Position numbers and translations under genes: made by a program. Below the pieces are notes generated by a model. It was not told where the DNA came from and did not search any database. It saw nothing but the letters and a program-made list of their open reading frames with translations. Below, in pieces: positions 3,662-50,312 of a stretch of DNA of 52,625 nucleotides. Source of the DNA: Bacteroidales bacterium (GTDB lineage Bacteria; Bacteroidota; Bacteroidia; Bacteroidales; JAAYUG01); the NCBI GenBank assembly GCA_012517825.1, contig JAAYUG010000136.1:1-52625 (forward strand), written 5' to 3'. How positions within the stretch are numbered: the stretch's first letter is position 1; each line of letters starts with the position of its first letter.

Positions 3662-3735
3662 TTGCTTATAATCCATCCAATTGTACAATTTTTTTTCGGG
3701 TTACATATAAATATATAAATATAGAGAATAGTTGA

Positions 3736-12347: not shown

Positions 12348-12367
12348 ACGATTAAGAAGAATCAAGC

Positions 12368-12396
12368 TTTTTAATTCGCTGGCGCTGAATTAAAAA
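12368..12396. terminator. Perfect 10-bp inverted repeat downstream of small membrane-protein gene
   Basis: TTTTTAATTC and GAATTAAAAA flank a 9-base loop. It starts 22 bp after the stop of the minus-strand gene at 12418. The stem is almost all A/T, so it is a weak intrinsic terminator candidate at best. Confidence 0.45.
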
Positions 12397-12417
12397 ACTA
12401 ATTTTTCTCTGTAAGGA

Positions 12418-12645
12418 TTAAAAATTGAGTGTCTGATTCAGGCCACATCCTGCACATCCGGAAGTGCCTTTATGGCAGGAAATTTCTTCCTGTCTTGCAC
12501 AGATAATGCCTTGTTTGCGAAGGTGGGGATTGGACTCAACATGCGAGTGCCGGTAGAAATGCAGGCGGTTCATCAGAAAGGAAAGCCCGAGCCCTGCAAT
12601 CGCCAGCAGAACAATAATCAGGGCAGGAATGAGCAGTTTTATCAT
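12418..12645 (-). CDS. Small single-span membrane protein with Cys tail
   Basis: A 75-residue protein from the ATG at 12645, where MIKLLIPALIIVLLAIAGLG begins the membrane helix; a start 7 codons upstream is possible but less natural. After the helix comes a tail with NPHLRKQGIICARQEE and CHKGTSGCAGCG, holding four cysteines and several histidines. The layout resembles the neighbour at 12012 although the sequences differ. I do not recognise the family. Its position near nqr-apbE and its metal-binding look make a maturation or metal-delivery role possible (inference only). Confidence 0.7.
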   Translation of the reverse strand: MIKLLIPALIIVLLAIAGLGLSFLMNRLHFYRHSHVESNPHLRKQGIICARQEEISCHKGTSGCAGCGLNQTLNF

Positions 12646-12663
12646 ACTTAAAAAAATATGTGG

Positions 12664-12671
12664 CAAAAGTA
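12664..12671 (-). promoter_or_regulatory. -7 box for small membrane protein gene
   Basis: The minus strand reads TACTTTTG, a perfect TAnnTTTG, ending 18 bp before the ATG at 12645. No TTG at the right distance is visible. Confidence 0.5.
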
Positions 12672-12796
12672 ATGCTTTTTTCCAGTTAGTTTGATTCAGA
12701 AACGGAACAAAACCAGACGGAGATTGTTTGCATCAGATACGATGTGAAGGAATTGAAAAAAGGTTGTATTTTTATTTGGTCAATGTGTTAAACAAG

Positions 12797-15897: not shown

Positions 15898-16395
15898 TCA
15901 GGTAAAAATCGGCAGATACTTCATGAGGTTTTCATTGGGTTCGGTTTTTACCGGCTTTATTCCTGCCTTAATGGCAGCTTGGATGTCACTTTCGCGGTCT
16001 CCGATAAAAAAAGATGTATCCGGGTTGATATGAAAACGGGCAAGGGCTTTTTCAATCAGGAGGCTCTCCGGTTTGCGGCACAGACATTTCCCATAGTCGG
16101 GATGATGAGGGCAATAGTAAATTTCCGTTATATGGACCCCGTATGATTCCAGCTGGTGAAGCATTTTCCGGTGGATCTCCTCCAGGGTTTGGTGGGTATA
16201 CAATCCTTTGGCAATTCCCCCCTGATTGGTAATGATGATCAGCAAATAGCCTGCGTCCTGAAGTCTTCTCAGGAATTCCCCTATGCCCTCATTGAGTATA
16301 AACTGGTCGGGGTGTGTGACATAATATAAATCCTTGTCGGAATTAATAACCCCGTCACGGTCAAGAAAGACAGCCCTGGTGGATCCGGCATGCAT
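15898..16395 (-). CDS. gmhB: HAD phosphatase, D-glycero-heptose 1,7-bisphosphate 7-phosphatase type
   Basis: A 165-residue HAD-IIIA hydrolase. The nucleophile motif FLDRDGVIN gives Asp12 and Asp14; motif II is TNQGG near 56; the Zn loop CPHHPDYGKCLC has Cys95, His97, Cys104 and Cys106; GDRESD at 132-137 is the acidic motif. The Zn loop and size fit GmhB, which removes the 7-phosphate in ADP-heptose synthesis for lipopolysaccharide; a histidinol-phosphatase role is the main alternative. Its ATG overlaps the rhomboid stop as TAATG, so the two are translationally coupled. Confidence 0.85.
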   Translation of the reverse strand: MHAGSTRAVFLDRDGVINSDKDLYYVTHPDQFILNEGIGEFLRRLQDAGYLLIIITNQGGIAKGLYTHQTLEEIHRKMLHQLESYGVHITEIYYCPHHPDYGKCLCRKPESLLIEKALARFHINPDTSFFIGDRESDIQAAIKAGIKPVKTEPNENLMKYLPIFT

Positions 16396-17018
16396 TAGTT
16401 GAGTCCTTTTCGTATCTGATCCGCAAAGTGAAAGATCAGTCCCGGATCCATAAACAGAGGAAAAACGAGGCCATACAGGGCGCCGATAAAATGGGCGTCA
16501 TGATTGATGTTATCGTTGCTGCGCATGCTCATATACTGGGAATAAATCAGGTAGATGATTCCGAAAAGAATACCCGGCATGGGAATGATTGCGTAGAAAT
16601 AGATTTTCTGAATCGGGAAAAAGAAAATGGTAAGGAACACAACGGTTGAAACAGCTCCGGATGCTCCTACGGAGGCGTAAGGAATGTTGTCTTTTTCCTT
16701 TATGAGGGTAAAGATGGAGGAGATTGCAATGGAGCTTATGTACATCAGGATGTAAACGAGTTTCGGGTGGGAAATGATGCCCTGGTCAAAGAGCTCGTCA
16801 AATACCGATTCGGCAACGATTCCGAAAGAATACAGCACAATCATGTTGACGATCAGATGAAGCCAGTCGGCGTGAATAAAACCATGGGTAAAAAGCCGGT
16901 ACCATTGGCGCCTGTATACTACCATAAAAGGGCTCAGCTGCAGCTTGTTGAAGAGTCTGGGATTTTGAAAAACGTAAACTGATACTGCGGAAGTGATGAT
17001 AATCAGGAGAATAGTCAT
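16395..17018 (-). CDS. Rhomboid family intramembrane serine protease
   Basis: A 207-residue six-span membrane protein. It has the rhomboid signature HLIVNM (His54, Asn58, oxyanion side), the nucleophile in GASGAVS (Ser120) and the second catalytic residue in HDAHFIGALYG (His176). It would cleave membrane-protein substrates within the inner membrane; the target is unknown. It sits between holA and gmhB on the minus strand: the ATG follows holA's stop by 10 bp and its own stop overlaps the gmhB start. Confidence 0.9.
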   Translation of the reverse strand: MTILLIIITSAVSVYVFQNPRLFNKLQLSPFMVVYRRQWYRLFTHGFIHADWLHLIVNMIVLYSFGIVAESVFDELFDQGIISHPKLVYILMYISSIAISSIFTLIKEKDNIPYASVGASGAVSTVVFLTIFFFPIQKIYFYAIIPMPGILFGIIYLIYSQYMSMRSNDNINHDAHFIGALYGLVFPLFMDPGLIFHFADQIRKGLN

Positions 17019-17028
17019 AGTATGCTGG

Positions 17029-18045
17029 CTAATGGAGAATTTTAAAAAGAAGTTCTTTCATGAGATCGGCAGGTTCGGCTGATACATTTCCCATGCCTTT
17101 GGATTTAAGGTCATATTCGCGCAGGAGGGCAATGATGTTGCGTGCTTTGGACGGTGAATAATTGCGGGCTGCCTGGCGGTATTCTTCAACAAAGAAAGGG
17201 TTAACACGCAGGGCAGCTGCAACGGAATTTTTATCTGATTTATCGGGTATTGAATGAAAAAGGAGGACTTTGGAAAACAGATTGTACATCGAAGGGATAG
17301 CCGCAACCAGAAGTTTGTTGTCGGCCAGATACTTTCCTATCCGGTATGCTTTTACAACCTGCTTATAAGCAAGGGCTTTATTGAGTTCGAATGCATTGAA
17401 ATCCTTGCTTATGCCAATGTACTTTTCAATGAGGGAAGCAGTAATGGTACGTTTATTTTCGGGTAAAATAATCAGCAGTTTTTCAAGCTCATTGACGATT
17501 TTAGACAGATCGTCACCAACAAATTCGGTCAGCAGAACGGCGGCCTCGGGATCAATGGATGCTTTGCGGGAATTCAGGTACTGTCCGATCCATTTCGGAA
17601 TCTTATCTTCATAGAGTTTCGGAAAATCGGCAACGTATCCTTTCTCGTTGAGTATCTTGTAGAGCGATGTTCTTTTGTCGAGGGATTTGTACTTATAGTT
17701 AATAACCAGAATCGTACTGAGGAGAGGGGCTTTAAGATAAAGGGAAAGTTCATCGATGCTTTTAAGTGCCTGGGCTTCTTTTACGATGACCAGAAGGTAA
17801 TTTGACATCATCGGATACCTGCGGGCTGTATTGATGACTGTTGCAATATCTGTATCCCGGCCATAAAAAACAAAAAGATTAAATGCTTTCTGGGCTTCAT
17901 CAAGCACCGTGTTCTGCAGGTAATCGGTAATCTGATCGATAAACCATGGCTCTTCTCCCTGAAGAAAATAGACAGGCCTGTAGATCTTATTGCGGAGTTC
18001 TTCTATGATCTCCTCATACGTAAGGCCTGTTTTTTTGATTGCCAT
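17029..18045 (-). CDS. holA: DNA polymerase III subunit delta
   Basis: A 338-residue clamp-loader delta subunit, which opens the beta sliding clamp during replication. The N-terminal YEEIIEELRNKIYRPVYFLQGEEPWFIDQI pattern, the LLVIVKEAQ segment near 85, FVGDDLSKIVNELEKL near 185 and the C-terminal helical collar are all recognisable. Family length is about 330-345. It is the first gene of a holA-rhomboid-gmhB operon with a perfect -7 box upstream, and diverges from the HsdR-N-like gene. Confidence 0.93.
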   Translation of the reverse strand: MAIKKTGLTYEEIIEELRNKIYRPVYFLQGEEPWFIDQITDYLQNTVLDEAQKAFNLFVFYGRDTDIATVINTARRYPMMSNYLLVIVKEAQALKSIDELSLYLKAPLLSTILVINYKYKSLDKRTSLYKILNEKGYVADFPKLYEDKIPKWIGQYLNSRKASIDPEAAVLLTEFVGDDLSKIVNELEKLLIILPENKRTITASLIEKYIGISKDFNAFELNKALAYKQVVKAYRIGKYLADNKLLVAAIPSMYNLFSKVLLFHSIPDKSDKNSVAAALRVNPFFVEEYRQAARNYSPSKARNIIALLREYDLKSKGMGNVSAEPADLMKELLFKILH

Positions 18046-18074
18046 ATTCTCTTCCTGAACATTTCAGCAGAATG

Positions 18075-18082
18075 CAAAAGTA
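18075..18082 (-). promoter_or_regulatory. -7 box for holA operon
   Basis: The minus strand reads TACTTTTG, a perfect TAnnTTTG, 29 bp before the holA ATG. The -33 TTG is not evident. Confidence 0.5.
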
Positions 18083-18116
18083 AGGAATATTGTGTATGTT
18101 TTTTACTTTTACGCTG

Positions 18117-18584
18117 ATGGATATGAAAAGCTTTTCAGCCTTCGAATTCAGGTTCCGCCAGAAAGACGGGAAAAAGTGGATTTTTGACCGTTTCCGCAGG
18201 AAATATGTTGTACTGACCCCGGAGGAATGGGTGCGGCAGAATTTTCTTACCTGGCTTACTACAGAAAAGGCGTACCCGGTTTCATTGCTCCGGGTTGAAT
18301 CGAATCTGATGCTCGGGAAATCGATGTGGCGTTTTGATGCGGTATTTTTCCGAAAAGACGGAAGGCCGGCTGTTATAATTGAATGCAAGGCACCGGATGT
18401 ACTCATAGGTCCGGAAAGCTTTGAACAGATTGCCCGATATAATCAGTTGCTGAAAGCAGATTATTTAATGGTGACAAACGGAGAAAGGCATTATTGCTGC
18501 AAAATGGATTACCATACCCGTTCGTGGGTTTTTCTTCAGGATATTCCTGACTGGAAAACCATCAGTGAATCTGCTTCTGATTGA
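18117..18584 (+). CDS. HsdR N-terminal-like (PD-(D/E)XK type) protein
   Basis: A 155-residue protein from the ATG at 18117, where MDMKSFSAFEFRFRQKDGKK begins; an ATG at 18123 is nearly as good. It matches the stand-alone 'type I restriction enzyme R protein N-terminal' family: IFDRFRRKYVVLTPEEWVRQ near residues 20-39, then RFDAVFFRKDGRPAVIIECKAP, whose Asp, Glu and Lys form a PD-(D/E)XK-like nuclease core, and a conserved QIARYNQLL near 107. There is no helicase domain and no modification or specificity gene nearby, so it is not a restriction system. Placement divergent to holA suggests a link to DNA replication or repair (inference). Confidence 0.82.
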   Translation: MDMKSFSAFEFRFRQKDGKKWIFDRFRRKYVVLTPEEWVRQNFLTWLTTEKAYPVSLLRVESNLMLGKSMWRFDAVFFRKDGRPAVIIECKAPDVLIGPESFEQIARYNQLLKADYLMVTNGERHYCCKMDYHTRSWVFLQDIPDWKTISESASD

Positions 18585-19131
18585 TCAATTGCAGGAAATA
18601 TTCGTCTTCCCAACCGTCAGCATTGCGGTTCCATTCTTTTCGTATGCCAATAACAGAAAAGCCGGCTTTGGTAAACAGCTTCAGGCTGATCTGGTTCGAA
18701 AGGGCAATATTGCAATAAACCTGATGAAGGCAAAGAATATCAAAAGCATAGGCAATAAGAACCCTGAGGGCGTTTTCGGCATAGCCTTTTCTTCTTTCTG
18801 AGGTGTCACCTATCAGGATGCCTATGCCGGCGCGAAGGTGAAAAGGGTCAAAATCATACAGTTCAATGGTTCCAACGGGCTTATGCTCTTTTATTGTCTC
18901 GATGATGAGCCTGAGCTGGCGGACTTCGAAAAGGTCTCTGGATGCGGTATCGATAAACTGCTGAAGCATGTACCTGGAAACCGGGGCAATCGTGTTCGAA
19001 ACTTTCCAGGTTGAGGGATTGTTCTCCCAGGCGTACAACAATTCAAGATCCGAAGGCTCAGGTGCACGCAAACGAACAATTTCATTAGCCAGCTGATCAG
19101 ACCAGAGAAGCGGTTTGGTTGTCACAGCCAT
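18562..19131 (-). CDS. GNAT family N-acetyltransferase (RimJ-like)
   Basis: A 189-residue GNAT protein with the RimJ/RimL/SpeG layout: LRAPEPSDLELLYAWENNPSTW near 21-42, IGTLIEL-type strands near 85-105, the acetyl-CoA loop ERRKGYAENALRVLIAYAF near 112-130 and a closing NQISLKLFTKAGFSVIG. The substrate could be a protein N-terminus, polyamine or sugar. Its start shares a base with the stop of the TPR/PD40 gene upstream (TAATG), so it is co-translated with it. Its 3' end overlaps the convergent HsdR-N-like gene by 23 bp. Confidence 0.88.
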   Translation of the reverse strand: MAVTTKPLLWSDQLANEIVRLRAPEPSDLELLYAWENNPSTWKVSNTIAPVSRYMLQQFIDTASRDLFEVRQLRLIIETIKEHKPVGTIELYDFDPFHLRAGIGILIGDTSERRKGYAENALRVLIAYAFDILCLHQVYCNIALSNQISLKLFTKAGFSVIGIRKEWNRNADGWEDEYFLQLINQKQIH

Positions 19132-20459
19132 TATTGGTTCTGGAGATCTTTTAACTGGTCACCGCTCAGAATGGTAACCCGGAAAATATCCATCATATCC
19201 GAATCGTCTTTTTTTCTGGTAATATATCCGGATGTTCCGTTTCCGACAGGGAAATAGAATTTATTATCGCCTGTAGTATTGATCGGGAAGCCAATATTAA
19301 CTGCCGGTGACCACTTATTATTGTCGAGTTTGGAGTAGAAGATGTCAAATCCTCCCATATTCTGGTGCCCCTGAGAAGCAAAGAAGAGTACACGTCCGGT
19401 GGAAGAGAGAAAAGGGGCGATTTCATCTGATTTGGTGTTGATATTGGGGCCGAGGTTTTCCGCCTTGCCCCAGTCTCCGTTTATTTTTTCCGAGCGCCAG
19501 ATATCAAAGCCGCCAAGTCCGCCCCGTCGGTTGCTGGAAAAATAGAGATATTTTCCATCGGGAGACAGGCAGGCATAGACTTCTGATTTGGAGGAATTAA
19601 TATTACTGTTAAGAGGTTGCATGATCGACCATTTGCCATTTTCCCAGCGGCTTACATAAATATGGCTGCTGCTTTTGATTTTCTTCACCAGGTAAAGCTC
19701 TGTGCCATCGGCTGAGATGCAGGTGGGATAGGATTCACCGTCAGAGCCAACCTGTGGTGTAATGTTTTCCGGTTCAGTCCACTGCCCGTCAACTTTTCGT
19801 GACATAAAAATGGCATTATAAAATTTCAGGCTGGTCATATAAATGATGACCGATTCATCGGGTGTAAGAACCGGGTCGTAATTATTGGAAGGTGTATTAA
19901 TGGGCTCTCCGAGGTTATGGAGGTCAATTTCTATGGGTTTGTCCTGAATCACCTTAGCCCTTTTGCAGGCCTCAATTTCGGCATTCACTACGCCTACATT
20001 ATAATTTCCTTCAAAATATCGTGAAGAGGTAAATTTATCGAGCATTTCCAGGGCCTTATCAAGCTGGTTGTTGATCCGGTATGCCTGTGCAAGGTAAAAG
20101 TAGGTATGAAACGGTGCTTTTGATTCTTCAAAAGTGCTTTTCTTGTATTGAATGGAGGCTTTTTCAATGGCCTGTTCAAAATATGGTATGGCTTTGTATT
20201 CTTCTCCGGGCATATTCAGGTAGCACATACCGATATGGTAATTGATATTTCCGTTTTTCGGATTATAGTCATGCAGTTTCAGAAAATAGTAAACAGCTTC
20301 TTTGTAGTCTTCTGATTCAAAGAAAAACATTCCGTTACTGAAAAGCTCCTTTCTTTCGGCGAGAGTCTGGCTTTTGAGCGGGAGTAGTGAGGCAAAAATA
20401 AGAATCAGGAGAATTAGCGATCCCTTTGAAAGGGATAATGCCGGTAATCTTTTCTTCAT
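19131..20459 (-). CDS. TPR/PD40 envelope protein, short form
   Basis: A 442-residue secreted protein from the ATG at 20459, which gives a signal peptide ending near LLPLKSQ. Residues 35-170 are TPR-like (LFSNGMFFFESEDYKEAVYYF, then AIPYFEQAIEKAS). Residues 180-430 hold a PD40 beta-propeller with repeated (D/S)G..LYF(S/A)S blades such as SPDGKYLYFSSNRRGGLGGFD. It ends after the propeller with no further domain. It is the smallest of three adjacent paralogues; the family includes the periplasmic PorE-type scaffolds of type IX secretion, but its own role is unproven. It has a perfect promoter and is coupled to the acetyltransferase gene. Confidence 0.85.
   Translation of the reverse strand: MKKRLPALSLSKGSLILLILIFASLLPLKSQTLAERKELFSNGMFFFESEDYKEAVYYFLKLHDYNPKNGNINYHIGMCYLNMPGEEYKAIPYFEQAIEKASIQYKKSTFEESKAPFHTYFYLAQAYRINNQLDKALEMLDKFTSSRYFEGNYNVGVVNAEIEACKRAKVIQDKPIEIDLHNLGEPINTPSNNYDPVLTPDESVIIYMTSLKFYNAIFMSRKVDGQWTEPENITPQVGSDGESYPTCISADGTELYLVKKIKSSSHIYVSRWENGKWSIMQPLNSNINSSKSEVYACLSPDGKYLYFSSNRRGGLGGFDIWRSEKINGDWGKAENLGPNINTKSDEIAPFLSSTGRVLFFASQGHQNMGGFDIFYSKLDNNKWSPAVNIGFPINTTGDNKFYFPVGNGTSGYITRKKDDSDMMDIFRVTILSGDQLKDLQNQ
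20420..20436. repeat. Perfect palindrome in signal-peptide coding region
   Basis: ATCCCTTTGAAAGGGAT (8-bp arms around one base) lies in frame inside the signal peptide of the TPR/PD40 gene. It encodes part of LSLSKGS between the basic N-terminus and the hydrophobic core. Confidence 0.4.
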
Positions 20460-20489
20460 GGCTCCTGAGTTGTAAATTTCAGTATTGAC

Positions 20490-20519
20490 CAAAATTAACA
20501 AATTGCTGTGAAATTACAA
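20490..20519 (-). promoter_or_regulatory. Promoter of short TPR/PD40 gene
   Basis: On the minus strand TTG (20517-20519), 19 bp, then TAATTTTG (20490-20497): a full -33/-7 match, 30 bp before the ATG at 20459. This separates the gene from the OmpA paralogue upstream as its own transcription unit. Confidence 0.7.
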
Positions 20520-20588
20520 GACAAAAAACGAAAGATCCCGGAACTGGGTTTAATGGCCAGAAAAGAGGTCTGTAAAATCAGCAACTGC

Positions 20589-22409
20589 TCACTTTTTTAG
20601 TGAAGCTGGTATCTGCAATGGTTCGATGATGAGCATGCCATTATCACCGGCAATAATTCTGAAATCAGCCCTTCGGTTATATTTTCTGCCTTCAGGATTA
20701 TCTGACCCGTCGGGATTATTATTGATAGCCACCGGCTGGCGCTCGCCCATAGAGGAAGTGGTGATTCTGGACGGGGCTATATGCCGGTTGGTCAGATACA
20801 GCTTAACCATTTCAGCTCTCTTTTTTCCGAGGTTCATATTGTATTCATCCGATCCTATGGCATCGGTGTGGCCAATAATTTCTATCCTCAGGTCGCTGTT
20901 TTGCTGCATGGCTTTTACAAGCAGGTCGAGCACGTTTCGGGTGTCTCCGGTAATCAATGCCTGGTTAAATCCGAATAAAACGGCATGAACAATAATTTTT
21001 TCCGGCAGAGCAGGAGGTATCACAACGGGGGGTTTTTCCGGCTTTCTGGCGGTATCAGGCAGAGGAACAACGGCTTTTTCTGCTTCGGCAGGTACAACCG
21101 GCGCGATTTTTTCTTCTTTTGTTTCCGGCACAAATTCAATCCGGTAAATATCATCGTCACCCAGTCCTCCTTCTTCGTAAAGGGCCATATAACCTGCTTT
21201 GCCATCCTGTACCGGATAGAAGAAAAGATCATCGTCGGTGGTATTCAGAGGATAGCCAAGGTTCTGCGGAGTATCCCATGTTCCGTCATCTTTCAGCCGG
21301 GAACAAAAGATATCGAACCCGCCCATGGTAGTATGGCCCTGCGAGCTGAAGAAAAGTTTCTTACCGTCAGGAGTGATAAAAGGACAATCTTCGTTGAGGG
21401 AAGTGTTAATTACCGCTCCGAGATTAACCGGTGGCCCCCAGTCACCGTTGGGGAGTTTGTCAGACCGGAAAATATCCATTCCGCCCAGCCCTCCGCTCCG
21501 GTTACTGGCAAAGTACATATGATTGCCATCGGCTGTAACACTGGCATGCGATTCCCAGAACTTGGAATTGATGCTTTTACCTACAGGCCGGGAACGGTTC
21601 CATTTGTCTTTCTCAAAACTGCTTGTATATACATCACTGTTGAACTGGTCTTCTTTTGTCAGGTAAAGTTGTGTCCCGTCAGGCGTAAGGTAGCAGGGAA
21701 ACTGATCTCCGTCAGACTGAAGCTGTTCGGTGATGTTTTCAGGTGCCGACCATTTTCCGTTTATTTTCCGGCTCATGTAAATGGCATCATAAAATTTCAG
21801 CCGGTTCACATAAATCAGAACCGATTCATCCTGTGAGACAACGGGTTTGTAATTGGCTTCTGCAGAATTTACAGGTTTTCCAAGATTGACTTTCGATATA
21901 GTTACGGGATGTTTTTGCATCTCTGCCGCATTTTTGCAAGCGTTGATCTGCTGAAGCGCAAATTGCGTCATTTCATTCGACTCGTTCTTCATGAGCTCCA
22001 AATACTTTTCGTACGCTTTTATCGCATTGTCAAGCTGGTTGTCAATGCGATACGCATTTCCGAGGAAGAGGAACACGTCGTACGGGGCCCTGGTCTCTTT
22101 TATGTTGCCTTCTTTGTAAACAGGTGTAAGATTTTGCGATGCTTTCTGAAGGTAAGGAATAGCTTCCTTTTTCTGGCCGGGAATGTTCAGGTAGCAGATA
22201 CCAATTCTGTAGTTGATGCTTGCGTTATCGGCGAACCCTCTTTTATATACTTTCATGTACTCGGGGAGTGCATCAGCGTAATATTCCTGCATGAAAAAGT
22301 ACTCAGCATCATTAAAAACTTCCTTAAGGGCTTCGCCGGCAGCTTGCGGGTAAGCTTCAAACGTAACAAACAAAAGGAAGAAAAAGATACCGGAAATTTG
22401 TTTCCTCAT
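20589..22409 (-). CDS. TPR/PD40/OmpA peptidoglycan-binding envelope protein
   Basis: A 606-residue protein with a signal peptide (MRKQISGIFFFLLFVTFEAYPQA), TPR-like helices (30-165), a PD40 propeller (about 185-425), a Pro-rich linker (about 435-470) and a C-terminal OmpA domain (about 475-600). The OmpA part has FGFNQALIT, the GHTDAIGSDEYNMNLGKKRA motif, whose Asp and Arg contact diaminopimelate in peptidoglycan, and RKYNRRADFRI. The domain order is that of PorE of Porphyromonas, a peptidoglycan-anchored T9SS component, except that no carboxypeptidase-regulatory-like domain lies between propeller and OmpA. It is a plausible PorE-type protein, but other PD40-OmpA families exist. Confidence 0.87.
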   Translation of the reverse strand: MRKQISGIFFFLLFVTFEAYPQAAGEALKEVFNDAEYFFMQEYYADALPEYMKVYKRGFADNASINYRIGICYLNIPGQKKEAIPYLQKASQNLTPVYKEGNIKETRAPYDVFLFLGNAYRIDNQLDNAIKAYEKYLELMKNESNEMTQFALQQINACKNAAEMQKHPVTISKVNLGKPVNSAEANYKPVVSQDESVLIYVNRLKFYDAIYMSRKINGKWSAPENITEQLQSDGDQFPCYLTPDGTQLYLTKEDQFNSDVYTSSFEKDKWNRSRPVGKSINSKFWESHASVTADGNHMYFASNRSGGLGGMDIFRSDKLPNGDWGPPVNLGAVINTSLNEDCPFITPDGKKLFFSSQGHTTMGGFDIFCSRLKDDGTWDTPQNLGYPLNTTDDDLFFYPVQDGKAGYMALYEEGGLGDDDIYRIEFVPETKEEKIAPVVPAEAEKAVVPLPDTARKPEKPPVVIPPALPEKIIVHAVLFGFNQALITGDTRNVLDLLVKAMQQNSDLRIEIIGHTDAIGSDEYNMNLGKKRAEMVKLYLTNRHIAPSRITTSSMGERQPVAINNNPDGSDNPEGRKYNRRADFRIIAGDNGMLIIEPLQIPASLKK

Positions 22410-22507
22410 GAGACATTGAATTTGAATCGATTAAAGAAACTATCACTTCCGGAAGGTTCAAAACCACTAACCACCTGAATACTATACAGTTCTTCCGGCA
22501 GGGTAAG

Positions 22508-22515
22508 CAAATTTA
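22508..22515 (-). promoter_or_regulatory. -7 box upstream of TPR/PD40/OmpA gene
   Basis: The minus strand reads TAAATTTG, a perfect TAnnTTTG, about 98 bp before the ATG at 22409. No TTG is visible at the -33 distance. The leader that follows contains a CTTCCGGAAG palindrome. Confidence 0.45.
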
Positions 22516-22530
22516 AAAATAAAATTTAAC

Positions 22531-25500
22531 TTATCCGATAGGGGTTGAATTTTCCGTCTTCTTTTTTCTTTTCTTTTTTTCTGCAATTAAGAGCAGGATG
22601 ATAAGAACAATGAGGAGCAGTGCTCCCAAAGCCGGAACTACAGGGAATGGCTTATGCTGCATACGTTCCGTTGCGGAAATGCGGGCAAGAAGATCCTGCA
22701 GCATATCATTGATAATTCGAACCAGCAGGTGCACAACGTCTTCCCGGCTGTATCCGTTGGCAGGGGCGTTCGTGTAAAGCCATTCGATCAGTTCATAAAC
22801 ATTTTTGAAGGGGTGGCCTGACCGGATCAGATGGTCAATTGTATTTTTGAGAGCACCTTCGGCATAGACAGACAGTTTTTCCTTGAACCAGGCAAGTTCT
22901 GTTTCATCATGGAATGCGAAGACGAATTGATTAATTTCTTCCGTTGTCAGCCCCAGTGCTTGTTTATTGCCAAGAATGCTGAGCAACAGTTCCTGGATGC
23001 TTTCAGTTTTTTCTTCCTTGAGTTCGAGAGGTTTTCCACTGGTTTGCTTTACAAAAAGCCTGAAGTTTTCCGCGATGTTTTCAGCCAGCATTCGCTCGTG
23101 AATCCGTCCGATCAGGATTCCAATATCCCTGTTTTCAAATTGCTGTCCGGTTGATACCTTAAACAATGATTCCAGAAGATCGGTTCTTGAATCAAAGGCT
23201 AATTTTTTTCTTCCGTTAGCTGATAAATAACCTTTCAGCGAGGGATCGGCCAGATCCTGCATTTCAGTGAACAGGTCGCCGGCTTCCTGGGAAGCAACAG
23301 CCTTCAGGAACAGATTAAAAACTTCGCCGGTGGTACTTTTCCCCCAGCGTTTGCTTTCAATTATATTTCCGGGGAAAGAAGGTGCAAGAAACAGTTTTTT
23401 GGTTTGCGCTGATTGCAAAAGGGTTTTAATGGAGCCAGTGCTCAGGGAGAGCATTTTGTCATATACGGCTGCCGGTTCCAGCTTGTCCGATAGAGCCATG
23501 GCGATGGCCTTTCTGACAGCATCGGATTTTTCGGCCGGGAGGGCTTCCGTAATGTAATTGAAATAATCGCTGCGGGCGAATTTCTTAATTATTTCATAAT
23601 CGTTTTCCCTGATAAAATCAGCCAGGGTATCATCGGCCTGGAATACCATTTCATTCCAGGCACGTTCCAGCATCAGCCGGTCATCAGTTTTTTTCAGGGC
23701 CTGCAGCAATTCATCTTCACTATATCCTCCTGAAGGAGCCTGTTTGAACAGATGGTCAACCAGTGCCGGTACAGAAGCCAACCCGAGCTTATACGGATCG
23801 GTTTTTTCGAGCTGATACCGGAGATTTCCGTTTGTCAGAGGAATCATTTTCCTGAGGTACATTTCCACCTGACGGGAAGCAAGGTAATTGGCCGCCGTCT
23901 GATTGACCGTGGCGGGATTCAATCTTACAGGACTTTTCTTTGAGCCAATGAACCGCATGAGTTCCTCAAGAGAGGAAATACCGTGTTTCTGCAAATCGAC
24001 CGAAAGAAGTTTTCCGGCGGTATCGGCGGGAAACATCATAGCCATCCGGTAAAGATGGTCTTCCGGATCGCCTTCAAATGCTGCAGCGGTAAGCATTCTC
24101 AGGAATTCTGATTCCGAATAACCGTTCAAAGGAGCCAGGCGCAATAGCGTGTCGGCGTACCCCTGGTTTGTATGGATTCCTGACTTGACCGGATCGAGTT
24201 TACTGATGGTGGTATGCAGGCTGTTGGTGGAATAGTGGAGAAGGACTTCACGGAATGCTGCCACATTGTTTTGCTCGCTCGTGGCCGCTCCTGTAAACAT
24301 TTCCAGCAGATCGCCGGTAGTGTATTTTCCTTCGCCGGTATGATCGAGGAGATACCTGACCAGTTGTTCCGGAGAATAGAGTTTCTTTTCAAGGGAAGGC
24401 ACGTTTGTGATGAATCTGCGGAGATTGCCTCCCGCATAGGGGATCAGAATCTCCAGCCATTCGTTCATCGGGTAGGTAGAAGCAGCCCTTACAAGAATCA
24501 TCTGCAGATCTGACTCCGGAATTCCGCTTGCTTTTGCCTGTTCAAAAAGGTAATCAGTGATGGAAGGAATGGTTTTCAGGGACGAGGGAATCTGCAGGTT
24601 GTGCAGAAAGGCATAGCTGTTTCCTGATGCGAAGGCAGAAAGCTTTTCAATAAACTGCTGCCCCGGCACCACGTCGGAAGCAGCCACCATGGCAAGTGAA
24701 TGGAGGACATCCTGCTTGGTAAATCCTTTTTCGGCAGCATGTTCGATGAGGTAATTTATCAGCTGGGTTCCTTCCGATATACCGAGTTGTGCAGGATCCA
24801 TCTTTTGCAGTTCCTGTCTGAGAGCACCGGTTGAATTGGCCTGCATGCGCCTGATGAGTTCGTCAAGAGGAATGTGGGCCGACAGATAGGCCAGGCTGAT
24901 GAGAAATTCTTCCTGCGAAAAACCAAGAGAATCAGCATGCATGAACAAATATCCGGCCAGTTCTCTGGCGGATGGATTCCCCATTTTCTCGGGCCGTATG
25001 TTTTGAAGGGCTTTGCGGATGTTTTCAGTTCCTGACTGGTTCAATTGATCCAGTAAGTTTTTTCCTCCGGGAGTGAACAATTGTTTATGAACATCCTTCT
25101 GCTGAACTGGTATCTGAAGGTCGATGAATACCGTATCGGAGGCTTTCTGCATGCCGGCGCCTGTGGCCGTGAGCACTACCACATTCAGGCCCGGTTCGGG
25201 ATAATAGACGTAGGTAAAACGTTTCTTTTCAATGGGTATCAGATCGGATCGGACAGGTTGGTTGTCGACAAATGCATTGACTTCAAGTGTATTGGCATTT
25301 TCTGTTGTAATGGTAATGCGGACCGGCCCGGGCTGTTTCAGCGAGAATGAATTCTGGCGCACGGAAAGCTTTGGCGGTTCCGATGTGATTCTGGTTTCCG
25401 GAGCGATTGTTTTTTCTTCCGGCGGAAGTTTCAGCTGGGAAGACAATACGATATCTCCTTCTTTATAGTCTTTTGGCACAAGAAGACGCTGGATATGAGG

Positions 25501-27000
25501 AAGATAACCCGGCAATTTAACCAGGAGATCGTATTCACCTGCAGGAACTGTAATACTGTATTCACCGGCAGGGTTTGCGGTGGTTTTGTAAACAGTATCC
25601 CTTGTCAGGATCTGAAGAGCGTAAACGTTGGCTGTTTTAGTGCCTGCTTCCACCTTTCCGGGAAGAGCAACAATGCCCCTGATGGTGAATTTGCGGGGAT
25701 GAACTCCTGAGTAAATTTCAAATCGGAAAATATCAGCGCGCCCAAGTGTGTTATTTTCCAGGTATCTTGATATGTAGGCAAATGTTCCGTTTTTGACAGG
25801 AACAAAAAACTGGTCATTGTCGGTTGTATTGATCGGATATCCTGCATTTACGGGTACTGCCCATGAACCGTCATCCAGCAGGGTGGTGTAGTTTATGTCA
25901 TATCCTCCCATGTTCAGGTGACCGTAACTGCTGAAATACAATGTTTTGCCATCTTCGGTGATAAAAGGGGTGTCCTCATTGTATTTGGTATTGACTACCG
26001 GGCCGAGATTCACTGCAGGGCCCCAGTCTCCGTTGGGGGTACGGACCGATTTGTAAATGTCGAGGCCGCCAAATCCTCCTTTTCGGTTACTGGTAAAATA
26101 CAGGGTGGTTCCGTCGGCTGAAATGCAGGCATGGGATTCCCAGTACTTGGTGTTGATGTTGGAGTTCAGAGCCCGCACTTTGGTCCATTTCCCGTTTACC
26201 AGTTTGCTGGTGAAGATGGTGCCAAGATAATTGTCGTTGCTGTAGAAAAATGCTTCCGTGCCATCGGCTGAAAGGGAGCAGGGGTACATATCTCCGTCCA
26301 CACCGAGGTCGAACATAATATTCTCTGGCTCAGTCCATTGACCATTTACTTTTTTCGAGTAAAAAACCGCATCGTAGAACTGGAGTTTCCTGATAAAAAG
26401 CATGGAGGTTTCGTCGTGAGTTACCACCGGATTTGTTTCAGCGAAGCGGCTGTTAATGGGTTCGCCCAGGTTGACAAAGTCCAGATCAATAGGTTTTTTC
26501 ATGAGTTTAATGGCGTTCCGGCATGCTTCTATCTGTTCATCAACAAGGGTAGCATCATATATTTTGGGATCAAGGATTTTTCTGAAATGGGAGTAAGCCT
26601 CTATGGCCTCATCAATCCGGTTATTGACGAGATAGGCTTTGCCAAGGTAAAACCAGGCATCCAGGGGAGCCCGGGTTTCCTTAAAGCTGTTTTCCTTATA
26701 ATCTTTGGATACATTTTTTGTGGCCTGCTCAAGGTATCCGATGCTTTCTTCCTTCTGATACGGGTCATTCAGCAGGCAAACACCGATACGGTATTTCAGG
26801 TTGTCATTTTCGGGAAACAATTTTAAAAGCCGCATATAAATGGGCAGAGCTTCCTGGTATTCTTCAAAAAGAAAGTAGGATTCTGCTTCGAGGAAAGATT
26901 CCCTGGGATCAGGTTTCCGCGTTCTCTGGTCGGCTTTTTGCCCCTGAATATTCCCTGAAATCAGGAATAAAAGCAGGGATGCTACAGTCAAATATTTCAT
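22531..27000 (-). CDS. Giant TPR/PD40 protein with about twelve novel helical repeats and C-terminal membrane anchor
   Basis: 1489 residues. In order: signal peptide (1-20), TPR-like helices (32-165), PD40 propeller (about 175-430, blades such as SADGTTLYFTSNRKGGFGGLD), a carboxypeptidase-regulatory-like beta domain (about 437-515, with NPAGEYSITVPAGEYDLLVK), a further beta domain (about 545-630), an alpha-helical region from about 655 to 1442, then one membrane helix (about 1453-1472) followed by AEKKKRKKK. The helical region divides into about twelve degenerate units of 65-69 residues; the best-kept share G-x-L-x-x-x-L, a (D)P-x-x-x-G step and Y-L-(F/I)-x-x-A-x-x-x-G-(Y/F). I do not recognise these repeats. 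A cleaved N-terminus plus a stop-transfer helix predicts a periplasmic body held in the inner membrane by its C-terminus. It is the first of three paralogues, with no promoter box seen in the 195-bp upstream gap. Confidence 0.85.
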   Translation of the reverse strand: MKYLTVASLLLFLISGNIQGQKADQRTRKPDPRESFLEAESYFLFEEYQEALPIYMRLLKLFPENDNLKYRIGVCLLNDPYQKEESIGYLEQATKNVSKDYKENSFKETRAPLDAWFYLGKAYLVNNRIDEAIEAYSHFRKILDPKIYDATLVDEQIEACRNAIKLMKKPIDLDFVNLGEPINSRFAETNPVVTHDETSMLFIRKLQFYDAVFYSKKVNGQWTEPENIMFDLGVDGDMYPCSLSADGTEAFFYSNDNYLGTIFTSKLVNGKWTKVRALNSNINTKYWESHACISADGTTLYFTSNRKGGFGGLDIYKSVRTPNGDWGPAVNLGPVVNTKYNEDTPFITEDGKTLYFSSYGHLNMGGYDINYTTLLDDGSWAVPVNAGYPINTTDNDQFFVPVKNGTFAYISRYLENNTLGRADIFRFEIYSGVHPRKFTIRGIVALPGKVEAGTKTANVYALQILTRDTVYKTTANPAGEYSITVPAGEYDLLVKLPGYLPHIQRLLVPKDYKEGDIVLSSQLKLPPEEKTIAPETRITSEPPKLSVRQNSFSLKQPGPVRITITTENANTLEVNAFVDNQPVRSDLIPIEKKRFTYVYYPEPGLNVVVLTATGAGMQKASDTVFIDLQIPVQQKDVHKQLFTPGGKNLLDQLNQSGTENIRKALQNIRPEKMGNPSARELAGYLFMHADSLGFSQEEFLISLAYLSAHIPLDELIRRMQANSTGALRQELQKMDPAQLGISEGTQLINYLIEHAAEKGFTKQDVLHSLAMVAASDVVPGQQFIEKLSAFASGNSYAFLHNLQIPSSLKTIPSITDYLFEQAKASGIPESDLQMILVRAASTYPMNEWLEILIPYAGGNLRRFITNVPSLEKKLYSPEQLVRYLLDHTGEGKYTTGDLLEMFTGAATSEQNNVAAFREVLLHYSTNSLHTTISKLDPVKSGIHTNQGYADTLLRLAPLNGYSESEFLRMLTAAAFEGDPEDHLYRMAMMFPADTAGKLLSVDLQKHGISSLEELMRFIGSKKSPVRLNPATVNQTAANYLASRQVEMYLRKMIPLTNGNLRYQLEKTDPYKLGLASVPALVDHLFKQAPSGGYSEDELLQALKKTDDRLMLERAWNEMVFQADDTLADFIRENDYEIIKKFARSDYFNYITEALPAEKSDAVRKAIAMALSDKLEPAAVYDKMLSLSTGSIKTLLQSAQTKKLFLAPSFPGNIIESKRWGKSTTGEVFNLFLKAVASQEAGDLFTEMQDLADPSLKGYLSANGRKKLAFDSRTDLLESLFKVSTGQQFENRDIGILIGRIHERMLAENIAENFRLFVKQTSGKPLELKEEKTESIQELLLSILGNKQALGLTTEEINQFVFAFHDETELAWFKEKLSVYAEGALKNTIDHLIRSGHPFKNVYELIEWLYTNAPANGYSREDVVHLLVRIINDMLQDLLARISATERMQHKPFPVVPALGALLLIVLIILLLIAEKKKRKKKTENSTPIG
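22675..25038 (-). repeat. Coding region of about twelve degenerate 65-69-residue helical repeats
   Basis: Residues 655-1442 of the giant TPR/PD40 protein. Unit boundaries are set by a recurring small-residue/Gly-Asn/Ser step followed by Leu, for example TGALRQELQKMDPAQLG, GNLRYQLEKTDPYKLG, NSLHTTISKLDPVKSG and GALKNTIDHL. Mid-unit phrases also recur: LINYLIEHAAEKGF, LVDHLFKQAPSGGY and LIEWLYTNAPANGY. The DNA repeats are diverged, so these are old protein repeats and not a recent tandem duplication. Confidence 0.75.
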
Positions 27001-27195: not shown

Positions 27196-28542
27196 TCATA
27201 TGGGTCGGTCGGGTGAAGCTTCTTCGAGCATTCGTGCAACTTCCCGGAGAAATTTTCCTCCCAGGGCTCCGTCAATAACACGGTGGTCGTAGGAAAGAGA
27301 AAACACACAAAGGCTTCGTATTCCTATGGACTCTTTTCCTTCCCACAGAACAACGGCCGGTTTTCTCCGGATTGCACCTATGGCAAGAATGGCCGATTCA
27401 GGCTGGTTGATGATGGGAGTACCTGTGAGGCTTTCGGCCATTCCGAGGTTGGTGATGGTGAAAGTGCCTCCGCTGGTTTCAGATGGGAGAAGCGCCCCCT
27501 GTCTTGCTCTTGCAACAAGGTCATTCAACCTAATGGCAATGCCGGAAAGGTTCAGCAGATTGGCTTTATGGAGTACCGGCACAATCAGGTTTCCGTCAGC
27601 CAAAGCAGTGGCAACCCCAATATTGATGTTCTTTTTTCTGAGGATTGTTTCTCCTTCTACCGAAACATTGATGCCGGGGAAATGGGCAAGGGTCTGAGCG
27701 ACAGCTTCAATAAACAATGCGGTGAAGGTAAGAGGAACACCATATTTTGCTTCAAAGTCTTTTTTGCGGGATTCTCTCCAGTTGACCAGGGTGGTGAGGT
27801 CGGCTTCGTAAAATGAAGTCACATGCGGGGCGGTAAATTTTGACTTCACCATATTCCGGGCAATGATTTTGCGAACCCGGTCCATTGGAATTACTTCCGT
27901 ATCTTCATCGCCGGGTATAGCCGCGGAAGGTTTTTCCTGATCAGCAGATATAGGGGCCTGGCCGGGGGGCATTTCTGCCGATAAATTCTCATGGCCCAGT
28001 TGCCGTGCTTTCAGGAAAGCATACAGGTCTTCCCGCGTTATTCTGCCTTCATGTCCTGTTCCTTTTATGGAGGCAAGTGATTCCATTCCGATGCCAAGCT
28101 CCTGAACGACCTTCCGTAAAAAAGGGGAAAGAAAGAAGCCCGGACCGTGATCTTTTGCAGGAGGGTACGGTTCAGAAGGGATCTTTTCTGTCGGAGTGTT
28201 TTGCGGTCGGGGGGAGAGTATTTCTGTTTCTTTTTCCGGCATCTGTTCGGAGGGAGGAGTGATTTCCCGGTCGGGAGCAGATATGTCTTCCAGAGTTCCT
28301 TCCGGTTGAAACAGGGCAATGGTTTCGCCCACCTTTGCAATATCCCCTTCTTTCTTAACAATTTTGCGGATTTTCCCTTTATGAGGTGCAAAGATTTCAC
28401 TGTCAACCTTATCAGTAGCTATTTCTACCAGCGGGGTGTCCTGTTCGACCGTGCTTCCCTCACCTACCAGCCAGCGTATAATGGAAGCCTCAATGATGCC
28501 TTCTCCCATAGAGGGGATTCTTATTTCGGTAAGAGTTGCCAT
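27196..28542 (-). CDS. Dihydrolipoamide acyltransferase (E2) of a 2-oxoacid dehydrogenase
   Basis: 448 residues with three domains. The lipoyl domain (1-78) has the lipoylation motif EIATDKVDSEI at Lys45; a Pro/Glu-rich linker follows; the E1/E3-binding domain (about 140-178) reads LSPFLRKVVQELGIG ... GHEGRITREDL; the catalytic domain (about 215-445) ends with SYDHRVIDGALGGKFL, giving active-site His420 and Asp424. It is probably the partner of the fused E1 at 12797-15214. Whether the complex acts on branched-chain 2-oxoacids or pyruvate cannot be decided here; the fused E1 type favours the former. The gap to the upstream glycosyltransferase gene is 9 bp. Confidence 0.93.
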   Translation of the reverse strand: MATLTEIRIPSMGEGIIEASIIRWLVGEGSTVEQDTPLVEIATDKVDSEIFAPHKGKIRKIVKKEGDIAKVGETIALFQPEGTLEDISAPDREITPPSEQMPEKETEILSPRPQNTPTEKIPSEPYPPAKDHGPGFFLSPFLRKVVQELGIGMESLASIKGTGHEGRITREDLYAFLKARQLGHENLSAEMPPGQAPISADQEKPSAAIPGDEDTEVIPMDRVRKIIARNMVKSKFTAPHVTSFYEADLTTLVNWRESRKKDFEAKYGVPLTFTALFIEAVAQTLAHFPGINVSVEGETILRKKNINIGVATALADGNLIVPVLHKANLLNLSGIAIRLNDLVARARQGALLPSETSGGTFTITNLGMAESLTGTPIINQPESAILAIGAIRRKPAVVLWEGKESIGIRSLCVFSLSYDHRVIDGALGGKFLREVARMLEEASPDRPI

Positions 28543-28551
28543 ATTGGATGG

Positions 28552-30525
28552 TTATCGGCCAAGTTTTCTGAATGCTTTTGCAATTATATAAAGGTCACGG
28601 GTAATCCGGTAATCGCGGGCGTAATTTATGTTCAGCGTATCGGCAAGTTCGGCGGAAAGTTTTCCGCTTTCGTACAGATCAGCAGGGGAGAGGATTCCGG
28701 GGCGCAGGGGGGGCAGTTGGTAGGCTGAATCAGGGATTCCGGAAAAATACCCCACCCAGGTATTTTTACCTGCCAAAACACGGAATATATTTCTGAGCAG
28801 GCGGAATGGCCGTGGGATGATCCAGGCGATGAAAGGAAAAACAAGCAGAAGGAGGAAAGCTATGCCGGAATCCATCAGTCTCTTGATTCGCCGAACCGAA
28901 GGACGAGCTATCAGGTTATAGCGCAGGGTGTAGATTGCTCCCGGGGAATCAATGCTGCTGCTGCCGATAACAGATACGCCTTCTTCCGGAGCAATTTTGA
29001 ATTCTGTTCGTGTTTCGCTCAGGCGGAGCATGTTTTCAATTACTTTACCTGAAGGGATATCCCGGGCACAGAAAATTATTTCGTCAACGGCATGCACTCT
29101 GATAATTTCGGGAAGCTGTTCAGGTGTTCCGAGGTAATCTGTTTTTGCATTATCGGTTCGTTTTTCAGAGACATATCCCGCCAGTTCAAAGGGCAGACCT
29201 GTTTCGTTGAGGAGGGAAGTAACCCGCTGAACTTCATCATATGACCCGGCAACAACAATTCTTTTCTTTTTCGGGAAGCTGAGGGCATTTTCTTTCCAGC
29301 CGGCCAACCGCATGATGATCCTTTCGAGAGGAAGGGCAATCAGTGTCCATAGGGTTCCCAGCAGGATAAGCGCCCTGGAAAACCGGAGTGAAGCGGGAAG
29401 AAGGGCATACACCACCAGAATGAAAAGGCTTCCTGCCAGTATTCCCCGGATAATTCTCCAGAGCCTGACCGGCGGTTCATAGCCTCCGGAATAGAACACT
29501 GTAACCAGCCATACAAAAACATAGGCCGGAACGACAAACTGCATGTATTCAGGGGGATAATAGTTCTTCTGCCCGAATTTGAATTCTTCCCAGAAAGGCC
29601 TGATCAGCATGTAGCCAAGATATATTACTGCAGCATCGGCTACCGGCAGGCTGATGCGGAAAAGAATCCGCTGCAGTGCCGAAAATCCTGCCCTGATCCA
29701 GATTGCCATGTGGATCAGCAGGGAGAAAAACCGGAAACTGCCTGAAGAAAAGTGCTTCCGGGCGAAAATCATCATGGCATTGTAAAAAGTATACACATAA
29801 TTCAGGCTTCCCTTTTTGGTGCTTTCTCCCTTGTAATGAATGATAGTTGTTTCAGGAAAATAATAATTTTCATAGCCCGCCTGTTTTATCCTCCAGGAAA
29901 GATCAATGTCTTCGCCATACATAAAGAATTCCTCATCGAGCAGTCCGGTTTTTTCCAGAGCCTCTTTACGGATAAACATAAAAGCACCGGGCAGAATGTC
30001 AATGGAATGAATCTGATCCGAAGGCAGGTGGCCGAGGTAGTATCGCCCAAAAATACGTGAACGGGGAAATAAAGAGGTCAGACCTGTGATTTTCCAGAAA
30101 GAAACCATAGGAGTGGGGAATCCTCTTTTTGATTCCGGCAGAAAATTTCCTTTTCCATCGATCATTTTGACACCCATTGCTCCGGCATCCGGATGGGATT
30201 CCATGAACCGGAAACATTTTTCAAGTGTGTCTTCTTCGATAACCGTATCGGGATTGAGCAAAAGAATGTATTTGCCTGAGGCAATTCTGATGCCCTGATT
30301 GTTGGCCCTGGAAAAGCCGACGTTTTGCTGATTTTCAATCAACCTGACCATGGGGAATTTCTCCCTTACCATGTGGCATGATCCGTCAACCGAGGCATTG
30401 TCAACAACAATTATCTCTGTTGAGAGGGAATGTGATGCCTTTAATACCGAATTAAGGCATTGCTCAAGAAAATGCCGAACGTTGTAATTGACAATGATAA
30501 CAGAAATATCGGTCACCGCCTGCAT
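28552..30525 (-). CDS. Family 2 glycosyltransferase fused to a degraded sugar-phosphate transferase-like region
   Basis: 657 residues. Residues 5-290 are a GT2 rhamnosyltransferase-like domain: DISVIIVNYNVRHFLEQCL, the metal-binding LLNPDTVIEED near 92 and MYGEDIDLSWRIKQAGY near 203. From about 290 the protein has membrane segments, a nucleotide-binding-like stretch (RIVVAGSYDEVQRV near 425) and a C-terminal part resembling WcaJ/WbaP phosphoglycosyl transferases (RRIKRLMDSGIAFLLLLVFPFIAW near 553). The catalytic KFRSM-type segment expected in those enzymes is not visible and that region is short. It probably works in surface polysaccharide assembly, with the C-terminal half as scaffold. The gap to lysA upstream is 86 bp. 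Confidence 0.82.
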   Translation of the reverse strand: MQAVTDISVIIVNYNVRHFLEQCLNSVLKASHSLSTEIIVVDNASVDGSCHMVREKFPMVRLIENQQNVGFSRANNQGIRIASGKYILLLNPDTVIEEDTLEKCFRFMESHPDAGAMGVKMIDGKGNFLPESKRGFPTPMVSFWKITGLTSLFPRSRIFGRYYLGHLPSDQIHSIDILPGAFMFIRKEALEKTGLLDEEFFMYGEDIDLSWRIKQAGYENYYFPETTIIHYKGESTKKGSLNYVYTFYNAMMIFARKHFSSGSFRFFSLLIHMAIWIRAGFSALQRILFRISLPVADAAVIYLGYMLIRPFWEEFKFGQKNYYPPEYMQFVVPAYVFVWLVTVFYSGGYEPPVRLWRIIRGILAGSLFILVVYALLPASLRFSRALILLGTLWTLIALPLERIIMRLAGWKENALSFPKKKRIVVAGSYDEVQRVTSLLNETGLPFELAGYVSEKRTDNAKTDYLGTPEQLPEIIRVHAVDEIIFCARDIPSGKVIENMLRLSETRTEFKIAPEEGVSVIGSSSIDSPGAIYTLRYNLIARPSVRRIKRLMDSGIAFLLLLVFPFIAWIIPRPFRLLRNIFRVLAGKNTWVGYFSGIPDSAYQLPPLRPGILSPADLYESGKLSAELADTLNINYARDYRITRDLYIIAKAFRKLGR

Positions 30526-45285: not shown

Positions 45286-45309
45286 AGGAGTTTTGATTTG
45301 ATTCAGATT

Positions 45310-45341
45310 CAAATATACACAAAAATTTTTTTGATGTACAA
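45310..45341 (-). promoter_or_regulatory. Promoter of gldJ
   Basis: On the minus strand TTG (45339-45341), 21 bp, TATATTTG (45310-45317). The perfect -7 box ends 24 bp before the gldJ ATG and lies in the gap after the PorP-like gene, so gldJ can be transcribed on its own. Confidence 0.65.
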
Positions 45342-45347
45342 ACATAA

Positions 45348-46355: not shown

Positions 46356-46423
46356 TGGCTTGTTGCAATAAATATACGAAGATAACGTTTAATGGTTACA
46401 TTTTCTTGCCTGTTCATTCTCCG

Positions 46424-50263: not shown

Positions 50264-50291
50264 TTTTTTTTACCGGTTGGGCAATAAATTT

Positions 50292-50299: not shown

Positions 50300-50312
50300 T
50301 CAGGTTTACTAA

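Follow-up and report, generated by a model that had tools for sequence, protein, structure and literature searches.

Three adjacent paralogues with different C-terminal ends

The genes described here lie at positions 19131-27000 of contig JAAYUG010000136.1 (assembly GCA_012517825.1) from a Bacteroidales bacterium, within a stretch of 52,625 nucleotides that was analysed as a whole and is called the window; all positions refer to its forward strand. The region is occupied by three paralogous genes, named A, B and C. They are co-directional on the minus strand and follow one another in the transcription order A-B-C, with intergenic gaps of about 120 and 130 bases (Table 1). An earlier note on this DNA had listed their endings as nothing, an OmpA domain and a rod, an order that follows the coordinates and is the reverse of transcription. 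Upstream, the cluster is bordered by a lipoyl-E2 acyltransferase (E2) gene, and downstream by a GNAT gene, whose start is touched by the stop codon of C. In the list of open reading frames (ORFs), C begins with a TTG at 20501 (456 residues); the ATG at 20459, which has aggag in front of it and gives 442 residues, is the likely start.

Table 1. Genes and domains of the A-B-C cluster and its conserved neighbours in the window
Feature	Position	Strand	Basis
Protein A, 1489 aa: signal peptide, TPR, PD40 propeller, CRD, Ig-like domain, helical-repeat rod, C-terminal transmembrane helix and basic tail	22531..27000	-	
A, TPR region, residues ~38-145	26566..26889	-	Pfam TPR_2 30.1 bits, cut-off 27
A, PD40 beta-propeller, residues ~175-430	25711..26478	-	Pfam; TolB nearest solved fold of the L022 orthologue model
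A, CRD-like (carboxypeptidase regulatory-like) domain, residues ~437-530	25411..25692	-	CarboxypepD_reg 26.0 bits, below cut-off 32.3; fold match Z 10.2 to Teneurin segment
A, Ig-like domain, residues ~541-631	25108..25380	-	fold match to 1ug9, Z 10.6, 2.1 Å over 83 residues
A, helical-repeat rod	22675..25017	-	repeat HMM (9 repeats of ~62 positions); all-helical model
A, predicted C-terminal transmembrane helix, residues 1457-1483, then Lys/Arg-rich tail	22552..22632	-	hydropathy, model
Protein B, 606 aa: signal peptide, TPR-like, PD40 propeller, linker, OmpA domain	20589..22409	-	
B, OmpA peptidoglycan-binding domain, residues 478-568	20706..20978	-	Pfam 73.3 bits, cut-off 27.2
Protein C, 442 aa from ATG: signal peptide, TPR, PD40 propeller, no further domain	19131..20459	-	
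GNAT acetyltransferase, conserved downstream boundary gene, overlaps C end	18562..19131	-	
Lipoyl-E2 acyltransferase, conserved upstream neighbour	27196..28542	-	
Family 2 glycosyltransferase (GT2), conserved upstream neighbour	28552..30525	-	

A common platform of TPRs and a TolB-like propeller

The region that A, B and C have in common consists of several parts: a signal peptide, TPRs and a TolB-like PD40 propeller. BLASTP aligns C and B with 43% identity over 404 residues, C and A with 43% over 426, and B and A with 48% over 399. This likeness is far beyond chance, since all pairwise E-values are at most 3e-117. The junctions are nearly the same in the three proteins, reading NLGEPIN in C and A and NLGKPVN in B, and then KFYNAIFMSRKVDGQWTEPE in C, KFYDAIYMSRKINGKWSAPE in B and QFYDAVFYSKKVNGQWTEPE in A. 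Pfam PD40 is above its cut-off in all three and TPR_2 in C and A, B having only sub-threshold TPR matches; a sub-threshold CarboxypepD_reg match occurs in A alone. For a model of residues 8-977 of a 977-residue A orthologue in the relative L022 (predicted local distance difference test score, pLDDT, 79.7), the nearest solved structures are TolB and TolB/Pal (E 4.7e-9), and sequence searches of PDB returned TPR and OmpA relatives only. The earlier note's description of three adjacent TPR/PD40 paralogues with signal peptides and near-identical junctions is confirmed by the ORF positions and the BLASTP identities, and its three endings (none, an OmpA domain, a helical rod with an inner-membrane anchor) are borne out by Pfam, hydropathy and models.

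A simple lipobox pattern applied to the signal peptides of A, B and C gave no lipobox-like motif, and no other outer-membrane anchor was seen in them. The stretch LSLSKG in the signal peptide of C was searched as a known dispersed repeat; there was no match, and an origin as a piece of such a repeat was ruled out.

Rod and predicted membrane anchor of protein A

Beyond its CRD-like and immunoglobulin (Ig)-like domains, A continues into a helical rod (residues ~644-1448), a hydrophobic helix and a Lys/Arg tail. The rod is all-helical in a model of residues 430-1489 (mean pLDDT 77.5); the fold-search matches of this model (Foldseek/VIA) fell on the CRD and Ig domains and barely covered the rod. 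A repeat hidden Markov model (HMM), built from eleven hand-cut units and then iterated, gave the consensus LK..L..LDL.kegI.t..dLi.YLl..A...gYt.eDV..LL. In the window protein, residues 1119-1323 score poorly with this HMM, and further repeats are likely there.

Across 80 A-type rows of 583-1494 residues, which include the window and seven further loci (L012-L018), some of these seven being copies of other loci, the HMM scores 0 to 11 repeats per protein, most commonly 4. Repeats are also present in six further A orthologues below the transmembrane threshold (949, 927, 949, 954, 952 and 1475 residues), whereas the other paralogues have none. Their occurrence in A-type proteins across families rules out a rod unique to this genus. 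In the 11-repeat rod at L090 (4356-8783), 9 of the 11 repeats are closest to another repeat of the same protein, with identities of up to 54%, a pattern in the sequence which suggests expansion within that lineage. No Pfam family is above its cut-off on the window rod; a short segment of the L021 rod reaches 29.0 bits to DUF5333 (cut-off 27).

A C-terminal helix above 1.6 on the Kyte-Doolittle scale, followed by at least three Lys/Arg residues, is found in 79 of the 80 best A-scoring paralogues (one per locus), the exception (L070) being masked to X at that stretch, and in none of 186 other paralogues. The rod thus varies in length among A orthologues, and the membrane anchor is constant. With a cleaved signal peptide and the positive-inside rule, A is predicted to have its N-terminus in the periplasm, its helix in the inner membrane and its tail in the cytoplasm.

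Predicted wall-binding end of protein B

In B, the platform is followed by a proline-rich linker and an OmpA domain. Asp516, Asn524, Arg531, Phe481 and Tyr523 are spaced as the residues that contact peptidoglycan in PorE, so that B has the same set of contact residues. The intervals of 8 and 7 residues between Asp516, Asn524 and Arg531 equal those of PorE Asp576, Asn584 and Arg591, which bind the stem peptide (PMC7192894). The three residues are invariant in 7 aligned rows. A PF00691 score above the Pfam cut-off, together with these Asp/Asn/Arg stem-peptide contacts, points to a peptidoglycan-binding domain.

Conservation of the cluster in relatives

Alignment A1 found 219 relatives among 84,980 species genomes; the 80 best were used here, and all of these are metagenome-assembled genomes (MAGs). 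The presence of A is conditioned in these loci, which were found by A, and counts over them are not independent, many MAGs being close. The gene order GT2/E2-A-B-C-GNAT is kept across many uncultured Bacteroidales. At 52 loci the sequence extends 9 kb or more beyond A on the downstream side; here a paralogue follows A directly in 50, an OmpA-bearing paralogue is present in 47, a bare one in 48 and both in 45; a SPOR-like-ended paralogue occurs in 30 by a SPOR model of our own. The run of paralogues ends at GNAT in 48 of the 52. Where the upstream sequence suffices (72 loci), GT2 or E2 is at most two genes away on that side in 68, and A is the 5'-most paralogue in all 73 multi-paralogue loci. 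Neighbourhood is therefore conserved, and an absence of synteny, which the earlier note had named as fatal to its reading, is not what these loci display.

In family f38, A is separate from the others, beside GT2-E2, and all four genomes examined hold further cluster-type paralogues elsewhere. Three of them (G039, G493, G722) have a bare C-type member and a second paralogue next to GNAT-HSDR_N-holA, the second being SPOR-ended in G039 by our own model; G722 also holds an OmpA and an OmpA+SPOR member. The fourth (G659) has a 427-residue B-like paralogue.

Bare-type members, defined as matches of at least 500 bits in an ORF shorter than 540 residues, occur in 11 of 14 genomes with A and in 1 of 135 without it (Fisher p 3e-13), with a cut-off picked after seeing the data and a model trained on A-bearing families. 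When the families f1, f8, f15 and f43 are left out, the figures are 3 of 6 and 1 of 135 (p 2e-4). The single A-negative genome with a bare-type match, G065, has a transmembrane-ended member too.

The A-specific CRD-Ig model matches 36 of 393 genomes of the order. This is a lower bound, because all four loci read in genomes missed by the model at the threshold used (G065, G026, G139, G081) hold a transmembrane-ended cluster paralogue. In five other clusters (L099, L100, L101, L107, L108), no transmembrane-ended member was seen in the stretch read. A phylum-wide distribution was rejected: the model matched 1 of 345 phylum genomes, the one that holds the window, though of 20 listed non-matching genomes only two belonged to this order.

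Phylogeny and exchange of endings

The TPR-PD40 part was used for a tree of 67 rows and 467 columns (IQ-TREE; support given as bootstrap/SH-aLRT), after removal of L064_OmpASPOR_16236 and L126_CHU (long branches) and L039_SPOR_16281 (a near-copy). The 53 cluster paralogues lie on one side of a branch with support 100/99.9, apart from 8 PorE and 6 CHU_0125-like rows; the PorE rows form a clade of their own (100/100). Within the cluster, the A-type (15 rows, 99/90), the C-type (13 rows, 100/100) and a B core (11 rows, 100/99) are supported, with L064_none_12958, which falls among OmpA members, excluded from the C group. On this tree the platform, A and C are each of single origin, and A, B and C are old separate clades, which disposes of the alternative in the earlier note that the three are unrelated insertions. 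A quick first tree, with no row of the 70 removed, is largely in agreement; it counts two changes for A, owing to one orthologue labelled 'other'.

The OmpA-ended members need three changes on the 67-row tree and the SPOR-ended members two; endings have therefore changed more than once. SPOR is a fourth ending, found in relatives, with Pfam above cut-off in four of eight suspected proteins (L042, L027, L091, L099) and not above it in the other four (L016, L049, L064, L103). Extra paralogues in the clusters of relatives end in this domain (PF05036), whereas none of A, B and C does; FtsN and DamX are examples of SPOR-domain proteins.

One locus, L039 (JAUXED010000012.1), holds an OmpA-ended paralogue (12350-14362) and a paralogue (16281-18170) assigned as SPOR-ended by our own model and by eye, not by Pfam. 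The two are 83.9% identical over 527 residues, with 88.8% DNA identity over 1599 columns, and diverge abruptly at the start of the OmpA domain. Among 356 differently ending pairs within loci, the next most alike has 49% identity, and the median is 39.7%. At the sequence level, the L039 pair is direct evidence of one platform with exchangeable endings and of a recent C-terminal domain exchange.

Comparison with known systems

PorE (PG1058, NF052230), a protein of the type IX secretion system (T9SS) of Porphyromonas gingivalis, has the domain order TPR, PD40 propeller, CRD and OmpA, which the window members follow. PorE carries all four domains in one protein, whereas A holds TPR, PD40 and CRD, B holds TPR, PD40 and OmpA, and C holds TPR and PD40. 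The earlier note's statement that the CRD and OmpA domains joined in PorE are split between two proteins stands for the window; it fails as a general rule, as the OmpA-ended member of the relative L042 keeps a CRD-like segment (18.1 bits, below cut-off). PorE has been proposed as a wall anchor (PMC7192894), and described as a fusion of CpoB, TolB, a carboxypeptidase and Pal, a proposed tether of outer membrane and wall and a compact substitute for Tol-Pal (PMC12204202). Against the PorE model (cut-off 600), C scores 160.3, B 220.3 and A 133.3 bits; these sub-cut-off scores and the separate clade rule out A, B and C as PorE members. The cluster also has a member with a C-terminal helix as its predicted inner-membrane anchor, which PorE is without. 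The P. gingivalis protein is described as a lipoprotein (PMC7192894); the lipobox-like motif missing from A, B and C is also missing from 8 PorE proteins of this order (L112-L119), so it separates little.

CHU_0125 (NF053607), a Pal-like outer-membrane integrity protein of Cytophaga hutchinsonii, has the TPR, PD40 and OmpA plan of B. Its deletion gives six-fold more vesicles and outer-membrane defects, and the abstract of that paper mentions no inner-membrane-anchored or bare partner (PMC5891637). With 148.1 bits for C, 250.2 for B and 133.8 for A (cut-off 620), and a separate clade, membership in this family is likewise ruled out.

Tol-Pal-CpoB distributes the same kinds of domain over linked proteins: TPR (CpoB), a TolB-like propeller, OmpA (Pal) and an inner-membrane-anchored part on a helical rod (TolA). 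The likeness is of function only. Unlike in Tol-Pal-CpoB, every cluster member repeats the TPRs and the propeller, and neither TolQR nor a lipidated Pal is seen in the cluster. The transmembrane helix of TolA is N-terminal, whereas that of A is C-terminal. The TolB model TIGR02800 (cut-off 343 bits) gives C 21.9 bits and has no match above cut-off in any of 21 genomes, in line with a 2025 survey which found no identifiable tol-pal loci in Bacteroidetes and expected further PorE-like systems (PMC12204202). A literature search found no inner-membrane-anchored PorE-like paralogue, or operon of this kind, described in titles and abstract openings, subscription papers being mostly outside its reach.

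Other features of the window

A Bacteroidota promoter pattern has 3 matches against 1.8 expected, none of them at the cluster, and sigma-70 and terminator scans gave about chance level. At 12728-15214, one 828-residue ORF has matches to the alpha as well as the beta subunit model of pyruvate dehydrogenase E1 and looks, by sequence, like a fused E1. A rhomboid protease gene (16395-17018) lies between holA and a HAD phosphatase gene and has the same place in many A-bearing loci; the C-terminal helix of A would be a conceivable substrate of it.

A predicted tethering scaffold and its alternatives

In the most likely reading, whose chances we judge to be evenly balanced, the three proteins would form a single periplasmic scaffold with differing anchors that tethers the inner membrane to the wall, working like Tol-Pal and PorE without being either. 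Each protein would present the same TPR and propeller platform, which is expected to bind the others, a common partner, or both. In B, the OmpA domain would attach this platform to the stem peptides of peptidoglycan. In A, the C-terminal helix would attach it to the inner membrane, with the rod as a spacer of adjustable length, and C, which has no anchor, could bridge or cap its two partners. The SPOR-ended member of relatives would add binding to peptide-stripped glycan strands, as at division sites. Together, the members would tie inner membrane and wall, possibly also the outer membrane through a further partner. The assembly of A, B and C, the place of each in the cell, the septal role and any outer-membrane link are what we infer from the anchors and the conserved cluster.

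The earlier note had placed one propeller platform at different envelope layers, and this idea is partly supported. The platform with different anchors holds, on the synteny, the single origins, the L039 exchange and the helix confined to A-type members. The gradation as far as the outer membrane does not: the sequences provide predicted anchors for the inner membrane and the wall, and a free form, with no lipobox or other outer-membrane anchor.

Several observations weigh against such a scaffold, which is predicted from genes alone. A rod of 0 to 11 scored repeats is odd for a bridge of fixed span, and the transmembrane helix has no common polar residue to suggest a motor (28 polar residues are scattered over 79 helices). 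No TolQ-, TolR- or ExbB-like gene is present among the window genes searched, the maps of relatives having been probed with window genes only. In some loci A has no adjacent partners (L052, L086, L067), and four of the clusters lacking a transmembrane member in the stretch read (L099, L100, L107, L108) lie by GNAT with OmpA- or SPOR-ended members. The flanking genes are housekeeping genes, and part of the synteny may be the inertia of these flanks.

A somewhat unlikely alternative is that the cluster is a T9SS accessory. Its members would then, as PorE does, link the wall to T9SS rings, PorP-like barrels or surface cargo, and A would add a connection to the inner membrane. In favour of this are the homology of the platform to PorE (133-220 bits to NF052230) and the binding of PorP and peptidoglycan by PorE in P. 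gingivalis (PMC9143113). The window itself contains genes for GldJ, PorP/SprF, the PorU sortase and PorV at 43795-51548 and for a T9SS plug protein at 2393-3688, all above NCBIfam cut-offs, with porU about 22 kb from A. PorU is found in 33 of the 36 A-bearing genomes, on the contig of A in 15 and within 40 kb in 12 (families f1, f8, f39 and f112). This linkage exceeds random placement, but may be ordinary gene order instead. SprA is present in all 36 A-bearing genomes, but also in 140 of 149 genomes of the order (Fisher p 0.21), and 126 SprA-positive genomes have no strong match to A, whose model misses some transmembrane-ended forms. Co-occurrence with sprA, which the earlier note had offered as a check, thus carries no information, and T9SS co-occurrence was rejected as evidence. 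The cluster shares no operon with porP or cargo, and its genome has a PorE of its own (733.6 bits, cut-off 600; G000:C71). A second, lower-scoring PorE relative in this genome (334.7 bits to the PorE model) is grouped as CHU_0125-like. Elsewhere in the genome, an ORF judged by eye to be PorP/SprF-like stands next to a PD40-PKD protein (L127, G000:C64, 918-3342).

It is quite unlikely that the three are ordinary members of a large PorE-like paralogous family with unrelated jobs, the cluster being the trace of an old tandem duplication and of slow change in gene order. This would suit the housekeeping neighbours, the further PD40, TPR and OmpA proteins of the same genome and the 2-13 PorE homologues per species reported in PMC5053529. 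It fits poorly with the single origins of A and C and the kept position of A over many families, with the concentration of bare-type matches in A-bearing genomes (under the post hoc cut-off, and at lower counts without the training families), and with the partners that persist in all four f38 genomes after the locus has broken. Very improbable is a processing or sorting signal in the helix and basic tail of A, which we take to resemble sortase-type signals, cut for instance by the rhomboid protease of the locus to release A to the periplasm or for export: despite the recurrent place of the rhomboid gene, no common motif precedes the helix in 80 A tails examined by eye, and a gene between holA and HAD is possibly a mere neighbour.

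The proposed tethering scaffold bears on the question of how outer membrane, wall and inner membrane stay together in Bacteroidota, which have no recognised Tol-Pal. The cluster supplies what PorE lacks, namely a member with a predicted inner-membrane anchor, and combines it with others of the same platform that are predicted to bind the wall or, in relatives, end in SPOR. In a bolder form, which we regard as unlikely, it would be the missing Tol-Pal counterpart in part of the Bacteroidales: a self-contained trans-envelope tether joining one TolB-like platform to the inner membrane in A, to the wall as a whole in the OmpA member and to the septal wall in the SPOR member, with A in the part of TolA and a rod length that evolves by gain and loss of repeats. 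The exchange of OmpA for SPOR clearly illustrates how a protein can be re-addressed through a change of its ending. In conclusion, the arrangement of the cluster is old and conserved, and the cluster may belong to a system, not described so far, that holds the layers of the envelope together.

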